Positions 21,894-25,696 of a stretch of DNA of 64,000 nucleotides are shown here, one piece after another. The stretch is taken from NCBI GenBank assembly GCA_030684695.1, contig JAUXXX010000020.1, forward strand, positions 31,933-95,932, in the 5' to 3' direction. The notes below the pieces were generated by a model. The model made no database searches. It was given only the letters and a program-made list of their open reading frames with translations, and was not told where the DNA came from. The stretch comes from a bacterium (GTDB lineage: Bacteria > Bacillota_I > Bacilli_A > Izemoplasmatales > Hujiaoplasmataceae). The position numbers were made by a program, and so were the translations under genes. Each line of letters opens with the position of its first letter. Within the stretch, counting starts at the first letter, position 1.

Positions 21894-21995
21894 ATCTTTG
21901 TACACTCTTATAACGCTCAGATTGTCCCCAACAATACAAAAGAAATCCTCTTGATGATTCATTCTTATGGATTGAAACGAATTTCCTTAGGTGCA

Positions 21996-22025
21996 TTGAC
22001 AAAACGTTATTTCTGATTCTATAAT
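21996..22025 (+). promoter_or_regulatory. Sigma-A-type promoter for the hydrogenase operon
   Basis: TTGACA (21996-22001), 18-bp spacer, TATAAT (22020-22025). Confidence 0.75.
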
Positions 22026-22031
22026 AGAAGA

Positions 22032-22222
22032 AATGAATCAATCAAAGGAGGACTGTGTCAACATCATCTTGCGTTGCTCAAATCTGAAATAGGCTTTAAA
22101 TCGGTGAAACACTATTTCTACAGATCTGGATGCAAACAAAGGACCGAAAGTCTGCAAGAGTTTTGTCAACAACATGAGCGGTACTTTATTTTGCACAGGG
22201 AACACTTCCCTGTTTTTTTGTT
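22032..22222 (+). ncRNA. Structured 5' leader (candidate riboswitch/attenuator) of the [FeFe] hydrogenase operon
   Basis: About 220-nt leader with nested complementary segments (CTTGC/GCAAG; ATCTG-AAATAG/CTATTT-CTA-CAGAT; GGAC-CGAAA-GTCT) ending in terminator CAGGGAA-CAC-TTCCCTG-TTTTTTT. Confidence 0.55.
22196..22222 (+). terminator. Intrinsic terminator in the hydrogenase leader, about 30 nt before the first start codon
   Basis: ACAGGGAACACTTCCCTGTTTTTTTG. Confidence 0.8.
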
Positions 22223-22250
22223 TTATATTACTAATGAAAGGAACACTAAA

Positions 22251-22712
22251 ATGGACTTAACTCAATTGCTTGCACAATACCCTCACGAAGAAAATCGTTT
22301 GATTGATCTCCTTTTGGATATTCAAAAGCAAAAAAACAATCATTTTATAAGCGAACAAGAAATTCAAATGGTTGCTAAACACATTGGTGTCTCGGAGGCG
22401 AAAGTATGTAGTGTCATCTCGTTTTATACCTTACTTTCCTTTCATCCGCGTGGTCGATACGTCATCCAAATATGTCGTGATATTCCCTGTCATATCAACC
22501 ATTCTGCTTCGATTGTAGGAACCCTTGAACAACTCCTTGGTATTCAAATGGGACAGACCACACAAAATGGATTATTTTCACTGGAGTATTCGAGTTGTCT
22601 TGGCCATTGCGATGCCCCTCCTTCGATGAGAATCGATGGACGAACTTATGTTCATCTCACTCCAGATAAAGTAAAAGCGATCATTTCTGAATATCGCGGG
22701 AGGACTCCATAA
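22251..22712 (+). CDS. hndA: NADH-dependent hydrogenase subunit, NuoE-like [2Fe-2S]
   Basis: MDLTQLLAQYPHEENRL; IQICRDIPCHINHS...EYSSCLGHCDAPPSMRIDG; start moved to the Met at 22251. Confidence 0.85.
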   Translation: MDLTQLLAQYPHEENRLIDLLLDIQKQKNNHFISEQEIQMVAKHIGVSEAKVCSVISFYTLLSFHPRGRYVIQICRDIPCHINHSASIVGTLEQLLGIQMGQTTQNGLFSLEYSSCLGHCDAPPSMRIDGRTYVHLTPDKVKAIISEYRGRTP

Positions 22713-23965
22713 TGGAACGTAAATTAATCTCTGCTCGTTGTGGGGTCATCAATCCACTTTCCATCGATGATTATATCAAAACTGGTGGCTATGTTGCTCT
22801 TCGTAAGGCATTACGTATGGAAAGAATTGAAATTCTTGAAGAAATTTCAGATTCAAAGTTGCGCGGTCGTGGGGGTGCAGGATTCCTTACTTCCACAAAA
22901 ATGATGGGGCTTGCTAAAGAATCCGGTCCAATGAAATACATCGTATGTAATGCAGACGAAGGAGAACCTGGAAATTTTAAGGACCGATTCTTAATCGAAA
23001 ATGATCCGCATCAAATCATTGAAGGTATGGCAATCATTGCTTTCGCAACACGGGCGAATCATGGTTATATCTATGTACGTGGAGAATACGACCATGCGAT
23101 CGAAGTGCTCCAATGGACACTTCTTGAAGCTAGAAAGCATAAATTTCTTGGAAACAATATCATGGACTCTGACTTTTCGTTTGACATAGAATTACGATCC
23201 GGTGCAGGATCTTATGTTTGTGGAGAAGAGTTCGCACTGATTGAATCCATTGAAGGAAAACCTGGACGAACGCGTGTGAAACCCCCATTCCCAACTTCAA
23301 TTGGATTGTTTGGAAAACCAACACTCATTCAAAATGTCGAAACACTAGTAAACATCCCTGCAATTCTCACCATGGGAGGAAAAGCATATTCAAAAATAGG
23401 TATGCCCAATTGTACAGGAACGAAATTGATTAGTTTATCCGGTAATGTAAAAAATAAAGGAGTCTATGAGATTCCGTTTGGTATTTCGATTCGTAAAGTA
23501 ATTTTTGAACTTGGTGGTGGGATAGAGAACAACAAAAAACTAAAGATGGTTCAACTAGGCGGTGCTTGTGGACCGTTTATTCCAGAATATATGTTAGATA
23601 TGCTTATTGACTACGAACGTTTCGAAGAGTTTGAATCCAAAACCGGAGCTGGGGCCATCATTGTGGTAGATGATCGCTTCGATCTGTTCGATTTAATGTT
23701 ACGTGTTGTACGCTTCTTTGAACATGAATCCTGTGGAAAATGCACTCCTTGTCGTGAAGGTCATGCCCAATTGGTCATCTTACTACAAAAGTTCATTGAT
23801 AAGAAAGCCTCTATGAAAGACCTGATTTCCATCGAAAGTTTGGCTCGCGTAATGCACCAAACAGCGCTTTGTGGTTTGGGTCAATCATCACCAACCGCTA
23901 TTATTTCAACACTCCGATATTTTCGCGATGAGTATATCGATCGCTGTGATATTTGGACAAACTGA
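22712..23965 (+). CDS. hndC: NADH-dependent hydrogenase subunit, NuoF-like (FMN/NADH, 4Fe-4S), short form
   Basis: LRGRGGAGFLTSTKM; CNADEGEPGNFKDR; ESCGKCTPCREGHAQL. Confidence 0.88.
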   Translation: MERKLISARCGVINPLSIDDYIKTGGYVALRKALRMERIEILEEISDSKLRGRGGAGFLTSTKMMGLAKESGPMKYIVCNADEGEPGNFKDRFLIENDPHQIIEGMAIIAFATRANHGYIYVRGEYDHAIEVLQWTLLEARKHKFLGNNIMDSDFSFDIELRSGAGSYVCGEEFALIESIEGKPGRTRVKPPFPTSIGLFGKPTLIQNVETLVNIPAILTMGGKAYSKIGMPNCTGTKLISLSGNVKNKGVYEIPFGISIRKVIFELGGGIENNKKLKMVQLGGACGPFIPEYMLDMLIDYERFEEFESKTGAGAIIVVDDRFDLFDLMLRVVRFFEHESCGKCTPCREGHAQLVILLQKFIDKKASMKDLISIESLARVMHQTALCGLGQSSPTAIISTLRYFRDEYIDRCDIWTN

Positions 23966-23971
23966 GGTGCT

Positions 23972-25696
23972 ATGATGATTCAACTTAAAATTAACAATAT
24001 CGAGTTATCCGTTCCTGAAAAAACAACGATTCTAAACGCGGCACGAATGAATAATATAAACATCCCAACCCTATGCTATTATCCGGATTTGGGACTTCAA
24101 TCGGATTGTCGAATTTGTGTTGTGGAGATTGATGGTCAAAAAGGACTAGCAACCTCTTGCTCCACAAAGGTACGCGAAGGGATGGTTGTAAAAACGAACT
24201 CCCCACGTGTACTAAATGCTCGTAAAACCATAACCGAGTTGATTTTATCTAATCATGATGCAAATTGCACCGCTTGTCCCAAAAACTTAAAATGTGAACT
24301 TCAATCCTTAGCAAACAAATTAGGGATTGACCAAAATCGTTTTGAACCAGTTCTTCGGGTTAAGCCAATAGATACTTCAAACCCTTCCTTGATTCGAAAT
24401 CCCAATCGGTGTATAAAATGTGGACGATGCATCGATGTATGTAAAAATGTTCAAGGAATGAATGTTCTCGAACTAATGGGTCGTGGTCATGATGCAGAAA
24501 TAACCCCTGCGTACGGTCGTTTTTTATCGGATGAAAGTTGTACGTATTGCGGACAATGTGCTTCCGTTTGTCCTGTAGGTGCAATTATCGAAAATGATGA
24601 AACCGATCGTGTTTGGAAACAGCTACATGATAAAGATAAAACAACCATTGTTCAAGTAGCTCCAGCCGTACGTGTTTCTTTAGGGGAAGCTCTTGGGTTA
24701 CCAATTGGAAGTATTGTTACTGGAAAACTGGTAACGGCCTTAAAACTACTTGGGTTTCACTATGTCTTTGATACCGATTTTACTGCAGACTTAACCATCA
24801 TCGAAGAAGGACACGAGTTGCTTCATCGAGTTACCAACAACGGGGTTTTACCGATGATTACTTCTTGTTGTCCTGGTTGGATTAACTACGCAGAACAAAG
24901 ATATCCTTCCATCTTATCGCATATATCCACTTGTAAATCGCCCCAACAGATGTTTGGTGCACTTGCAAAAACATATTTTACAAAAATCATTCAAAAGGAA
25001 CCAAAAGATGTTATTGTAGTCTCTATTATGCCTTGCACTGCTAAAAAATATGAGGCCAAGCGTGACGAAATGAAATCAGATGGCATCCATCAAGACGTTG
25101 ATATTGTATTGACAACACGTGAACTGAGTAAAATGTTGGATCAAATGGGAGTTGATTTTGCCAAACTCGACGAAACTCCATTTGATAATCCGTTTGGAAT
25201 CACCACTGGTGCGGCCGCCATCTTTGGCGCAACAGGTGGTGTTATGGAAGCTGCGCTTCGTACCGTCTATGAAGTTGTCAATCATCAACCACTTGAATCA
25301 ATCGAATTAACTGAGGTTCGTGGATTAGATGGAATAAAAGAAACTTCCGTTGAATTAGGTGGAAACGTATATCGCTTCGCCGTTGCACATAGCTTATCGA
25401 ATGCAAAAACTCTCGTTGATCAAGTGTCAAACGGTACTTCCCCATATACCTTTATCGAAATAATGTGCTGCCCAGGAGGTTGCATTGGTGGTGGTGGTCA
25501 ACCATACGGAACGATACAAAAAACCAGAAGAGATCGAATCGAGGCAACCTACCTTCTCGATCAATCTATGCCCCTTCGAAAATCTCATGAGTCCCCAGCA
25601 GTAAAAGAAATATACCGTGCTTTCTTGGGTGAACCGCTTGGAGAATTATCTCATAAACTATTGCATACCCATTACCATAGCAGACAACATACGTAG
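23972..25696 (+). CDS. hndD: [FeFe] hydrogenase catalytic subunit
   Basis: 2Fe-2S plus His-Cys3 motif (HDANCTACPKNLKC), two 4Fe-4S motifs, H-cluster motifs TSCCPGW, MPCTAKK, EIMCCPGGCIGGGGQP. Confidence 0.95.
   Translation: MMIQLKINNIELSVPEKTTILNAARMNNINIPTLCYYPDLGLQSDCRICVVEIDGQKGLATSCSTKVREGMVVKTNSPRVLNARKTITELILSNHDANCTACPKNLKCELQSLANKLGIDQNRFEPVLRVKPIDTSNPSLIRNPNRCIKCGRCIDVCKNVQGMNVLELMGRGHDAEITPAYGRFLSDESCTYCGQCASVCPVGAIIENDETDRVWKQLHDKDKTTIVQVAPAVRVSLGEALGLPIGSIVTGKLVTALKLLGFHYVFDTDFTADLTIIEEGHELLHRVTNNGVLPMITSCCPGWINYAEQRYPSILSHISTCKSPQQMFGALAKTYFTKIIQKEPKDVIVVSIMPCTAKKYEAKRDEMKSDGIHQDVDIVLTTRELSKMLDQMGVDFAKLDETPFDNPFGITTGAAAIFGATGGVMEAALRTVYEVVNHQPLESIELTEVRGLDGIKETSVELGGNVYRFAVAHSLSNAKTLVDQVSNGTSPYTFIEIMCCPGGCIGGGGQPYGTIQKTRRDRIEATYLLDQSMPLRKSHESPAVKEIYRAFLGEPLGELSHKLLHTHYHSRQHT

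Follow-up and report, generated by a model that had tools for sequence, protein, structure and literature searches.

A terminator-bearing 5' leader of an [FeFe] hydrogenase operon in Izemoplasmatales as a candidate transcription attenuator

Does the stretch of about 220 nt that separates a consensus promoter from the first gene of an [FeFe] hydrogenase operon control that operon at the RNA level? We addressed this question in a 64,000-nt stretch of DNA from a bacterium of the order Izemoplasmatales (henceforth, the window), the relevant features of which are collected in Table 1. We think it somewhat probable that this region forms the 5' leader of the hydrogenase mRNA, where it acts as a transcription attenuator equipped with a GGAGG box and a lineage-specific hairpin. 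Regulation of the leader, if it occurs, would amount to control of a HydABC-type [FeFe] hydrogenase at the RNA level, a subject on which a limited search of the open-access literature found no paper.

Promoter, leader and downstream operon

Every sequence element named in a first-pass annotation of the window was recovered at its position. The promoter, there called near-consensus, turned out to match sigma-70 at all consensus positions, with the -35 TTGACA at 21996-22001, an 18-nt spacer and the -10 TATAAT at 22020-22025; transcription would start about 7 nt past the -10, near 22032. The hndA frame is open upstream through the whole leader (22017-22250, 78 codons), which we estimate to happen by chance in about 0.5% of cases. 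An N-terminal coding extension of HndA via this open frame was nevertheless rejected on its noncoding-like codon usage: the leader scores -0.15, below 95% of coding chunks (5th percentile, -0.00) and in the range of wrong-frame sequence (median, -0.21; 95th percentile, -0.03). Because its codon score sits with wrong-frame sequence, the leader is treated here as non-coding. In addition, the start position of hndA is the same in homologues. As for the hydrogenase itself, the best PDB match of the window HydA is HydA1 of 8a6t, and its closest relatives within the PDB are the HydA1 subunits of electron-bifurcating hydrogenases (8a6t, 7q4v).

Table 1. Features of the hydrogenase leader and operon in the window (positions are those of the window)
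Feature	Position	Strand	Basis or remark
Sigma-70 promoter, TTGACA-18-TATAAT	21996-22025	+	12/12 consensus positions
Putative transcribed, non-translated leader, ~220 nt	22032-22250	+	Codon usage noncoding-like; without Rfam match
AAAGGAGGA box, Shine-Dalgarno-like, without properly spaced start codon	22044-22052	+	GGAGG common in family leaders
GTG..TGA mini-ORF (MSTSSCVAQI), probably untranslated	22055-22087	+	3-nt spacing; not common to orthologous leaders
Closing helix CTTGC/GCAAG of proposed three-way junction	22068-22158	+	Predicted only; z -0.84
Long arm, apical loop GCUUUAAAUCGGUGAAACA at 22093-22111	22082-22125	+	Predicted in MFE and centroid
Small hairpin GGAC-CGAAA-GUCU	22141-22153	+	Predicted; z -0.06
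Intrinsic terminator, perfect 8-bp stem + T7	22195-22219	+	Hairpin -10.5 kcal/mol, z -3.17
AAAGGA Shine-Dalgarno + hndA ATG	22237-22253	+	Sequence; ATG at 22251
NuoE/HndA-like subunit (hndA)	22251-22709	+	First gene of operon
NuoF-like subunit	22712-23965	+	Second gene
[FeFe] hydrogenase group A6 (HydA of HydABC type)	23972-25696	+	NF040763 856 bits, cut-off 765

The terminator and the predicted folds of the leader

The clean intrinsic terminator that had been noticed about 30 nt upstream of the first start codon is borne out: a perfect stem (ACAGGGAACACTTCCCTGT at 22195-22213) runs into seven T residues at 22213-22219, 31 nt before the hndA ATG. This hairpin is the sole part of the leader that folds better than its shuffles, 1 of 200 being as good. 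Among 500 shuffles of the T-rich 3' part of the leader, 12 to 16 (2-3%) yield a terminator that reaches -9.5 or -8 kcal/mol; of the 50 orthologous leaders from the order, 5 have a terminator of -8 kcal/mol or better ahead of the start codon, against 0.9 expected. The window thus has what defines a transcription attenuator in outline—an intrinsic terminator that follows the promoter and precedes the first codon, all on one strand—and because this terminator separates the first gene from its only good promoter, attenuation appears to be the natural reading. RNA polymerase would start near 22032 at the consensus promoter and make a leader of about 165 nt; many transcripts would stop at the terminator before hndA, with expression hinging on read-through. 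The GGAGG box would probably bind the 30S subunit without a start of translation, protecting or loading the leader, and a hairpin with a U-rich CGG(U/A) loop would be the likeliest target of a factor or ligand, since it recurs in orthologous leaders of other genera of the family. That termination is regulated we infer from this arrangement; the earlier suggestion that the leader senses a redox, iron or cofactor signal is conjecture.

Judged by its anatomy, the leader belongs to the broad kind of intrinsic-terminator attenuators. Attenuators of this kind with unknown sensor have been surveyed in Firmicutes (Naville and Gautheret 2010, PMC2965389; the word "hydrogenase" is absent from the main text), and the window shares with them a promoter, a leader of 100-300 nt, an intrinsic terminator shortly before the gene and a fast-evolving leader sequence; it differs in that no close homologue of its leader could be detected and no antiterminator is clear. 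The leader had not been matched to a riboswitch class by eye, and Rfam/Infernal searches concur even at permissive thresholds: Rfam 15 (4227 models) at the gathering threshold gave 0 matches in the whole window, a permissive scan of 21950-22300 gave one chance match (E 7.3), and a scan of 24 related loci returned tRNA genes and one sub-threshold chance match, none of it relevant. A terminator-controlled leader in a Bacilli-class genome is a trait shared with T-box and Rfam riboswitch classes, from which the window differs in having no Rfam match.

Termination could also be constitutive, because a strong antiterminator was not found: stepwise folding of the leader produced none that competes strongly with the terminator. 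As long as the terminator lacks its 3' arm, CUGUG (22053-22057) pairs with CACAG (22194-22198) with a probability of about 40%; this pairing, of 5-6 bp, overlaps four terminator bases. A constitutive partial terminator would let a fixed fraction of transcripts through, keeping expression low, and the leader would sense nothing. In keeping with such fixed termination, the terminator forms beside the predicted upstream fold without competition, and the window shows no conserved fold; however, other genera have long leaders with a common box and hairpin, which go beyond the needs of a bare terminator, and we consider fixed termination unlikely.

The upstream fold had been proposed as a plausible three-way junction, with CTTGC (22068-22072) and GCAAG (22154-22158) enclosing a small hairpin and a long arm built of ATCTG/CAGAT plus AAATAG (22087-22092) and CTATTT (22112-22117). 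This proposal is not supported, its stability being at chance level: the junction region (22064-22163) folds at -20.2 kcal/mol with 38 of 200 shuffles as good, the z-scores of junction and small arm are those of Table 1, and the whole-leader fold has a z of -0.34 with 74 of 200 shuffles as good. TTGCGT (22069-22074) can alternatively pair with ATGCAA (22130-22135), competing with CTTGC/GCAAG for the same bases. We also considered, by eye, a pseudoknot that would pair the loop UCGGU with ACCGA in the small hairpin, and dropped it, as the position of the partner is not conserved. Of the idea of a cis-acting RNA controlling the hydrogenase, the terminator between promoter and gene stands, but the structured three-way-junction sensor lacks statistical support.

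These folds also bear on whether the leader is a new small-molecule riboswitch with the junction or the long arm as its aptamer. The absence of an Rfam match, the position ahead of a metabolic operon and 3' ends that vary between genera, as expression platforms do, would all suit one. Yet the junction is no more stable than chance, what recurs among leaders is one short loop motif (marginal in the window) rather than a conserved multi-helix aptamer, and covariation is weak even in the five close relatives to which the test was confined—2 of 12 pairs changed on both sides, with 47 of 500 shuffles as high. A new riboswitch is accordingly possible but decidedly unlikely, and a weaker case than an attenuator of known broad kind.

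The GGAGG box and the loop hairpin among orthologous leaders

Of 90 genomes of the order, 80 contain HndA homologues, which are at best about 50-55% identical, and we compared 50 leaders, 21 from the window's family and 29 from another. BLAST of the leader against 61 genomes found no close homologue, just short chance matches besides itself, and MAFFT gave no consistent alignment of the window with the leaders of genus g7. Pairwise alignments with the window are marginal, the best meaningful p being 0.022 (L042, owing to the box), followed by 0.07-0.09 (L059 and L066). The window has AAUCAAAGGAGGA in common with L042, at nearly equal distance from the promoter, and AUCGGUGAAA in common with L059 and L066, in the apical loop. 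Other words common to the window and L042 (GCGTTGCT, GGATGCA and GACNGAAAGTC) were dropped, 8-mers being expected by chance and their order relative to the hairpin differing.

In the window, GGAGG lies 21 nt past the -10, which puts it about 14 nt into the predicted transcript. Within the family, 14 of 21 orthologous leaders place GGAGG 12-34 nt downstream of the -10, whereas by chance about 1.1 of 21 should contain it at any position; in leaders of the other family GGAGG is found in just 4 of 29, mostly at other positions. Most of the family boxes have no start codon at a usable distance, and in five leaders (L037, L045, L048, L051 and L076) none occurs within 20 nt of the box. Where other strong promoters of the window are followed by GGAGG, an ATG stands directly behind the box. 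A precedent in Gram-positive bacteria is STAB-SD, a Shine-Dalgarno-like box close to the 5' end of the mRNA that binds 30S, directs no translation and obstructs RNase J1 (PMC4113751). The window box, like that of cry3A, is Shine-Dalgarno-like, lies near the 5' end and has no properly spaced ORF behind it, and by analogy it is possibly a stabiliser of the STAB-SD type; in the window a terminator follows the box, an arrangement not described for cry3A in PMC4113751.

The box also invites a translational explanation, raised as a weak alternative in the first-pass annotation, in which MSTSSCVAQI is translated from the GTG at 22055 and ribosome stalling decides termination. With AAAGGAGGA directly upstream of a short ORF with a stop, and a terminator downstream, the window does resemble ribosome-dependent leader-peptide attenuators, and in genera g9 and g11 a TTG stands 9-14 nt past the box. 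It departs from them in its bad spacing (the 3 nt between GGAGG and GTG, already remarked upon as short) and in lacking a conserved peptide or a codon bias pointing to a signal. Nor is the peptide common to the orthologous leaders, five of which, as listed above, have no start codon near the box, and in g9 the region past the box folds into a hairpin whose two arms, as seen by eye, change in a compensating way. We therefore set leader-peptide attenuation aside as very improbable. Still more improbable is it that hairpin and T-run are incidental and that transcription starts inside or after them from the promoter-like TTGTCA-18-TATTTT (22163-22192): this sequence matches at 9 of 12 positions and its start would fall within the terminator stem, but such matches occur here at chance level (8 found, 6.2 expected) and the upstream promoter matches in full.

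Returning to attenuation at the terminator, the second recurrent element is the hairpin with a T-rich loop containing CGG[AT], which a script found in 13 of 19 family leaders against 1.24 in dinucleotide shuffles, a count made on the same leaders on which the motif was defined, so that leave-one-genus-out scoring is the fairer comparison. In that scoring, most leaders exceed all or nearly all of a 128-kb background; for the window hairpin, 30 background sites in 128 kb score as high, or about 0.05 per leader. The resemblance of the window's long arm to the U-rich/CGG(U/A) hairpins of orthologous leaders is thus suggestive only, that of a marginal member. L059, L066 and L042 have the CGG[AT] loop hairpin with shorter stems, and within the family the loop motif recurs with differing stems. 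A covariance model (R1) built on the hairpins of g9 and g11 found neither the window nor most other genera, and in the sister family f3 the GGAGG box and the loop hairpin are both absent from most leaders. Collecting the leaders of hndA homologues, as had been advised, yielded a recurrent box and U-rich/CGG(U/A) hairpin, with weak covariation in the five close relatives. The orthologous leaders of the family look related. It is a tentative proposal that they represent a new cis-acting element, made of a 5' GGAGG box and a hairpin whose U-rich loop ends in AUCGG(U/A), to be read by a factor or ligand and joined to interchangeable 3' outputs, with the window as a divergent member. The 3' parts do differ, being a terminator in the window and genus g7 and a Shine-Dalgarno hairpin in L048. 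The box and hairpin shared across the family offer a concrete, testable handle on leader function.

Several individual leaders deserve mention. In the last 60 nt before hndA of L048, the Shine-Dalgarno sequence is predicted to be sequestered by a hairpin of CUCCUUAG / CUAAGGAG, and the output of this leader would be translational. L051 and L076 can form mutually exclusive helices, a local GUCUA..UAGAC and a long-range GUCUAAGUAAAA/UUUUGCUUGGAC (with changes in L076); six T residues follow the local hairpin in L076, resembling a terminator/antiterminator pair. In five f3 leaders (L050, L054, L067, L072 and L081), about 120 nt before hndA, we observed a long-loop hairpin ending in ..GTGG (ATGG in L081), with a T-rich run near the Shine-Dalgarno sequence and stem sequences that differ among leaders; judged by these sequences, it resembles a further attenuator of this operon, likewise specific to a lineage. 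Finally, a second A6 hydrogenase operon in genome G000 (L130, G000:C119) has a short leader; because this leader lacks both box and hairpin, the two elements are not general to the hydrogenase operons of that genome.

Hydrogenase motifs and maturases

The group A6 [FeFe] hydrogenase of the window has intact H-cluster motifs and stands without maturases, as do those of G000, G018, G025 and other genomes of the family. HydG, HydE and HydF (the last where tested) were over cut-off in none of 16 family genomes, the control, Thermotoga maritima, being found each time. In G018 and G025, which consist of one contig each, HydG and HydE were not found, and their hydrogenases keep TSCCPAW, MPCTAKKAE and EIMACPGGCIGGGGQP. 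Among the 248 genomes of the class, a hydrogenase match was obtained in 144 and HydG in just 18. We also observed in Bacilli a second A6-like type with TSCSPGW (L086-L092, L095-L097, L104, L106, L107 and L113), in which Ser replaces what we take to be the proton-transfer Cys; its third motif, where matched, reads MGC..GGC[VI]NGGGQP. The genomes with this second type are mostly without HydG, and L089, L096 and L097 lie in HydG-bearing genomes.
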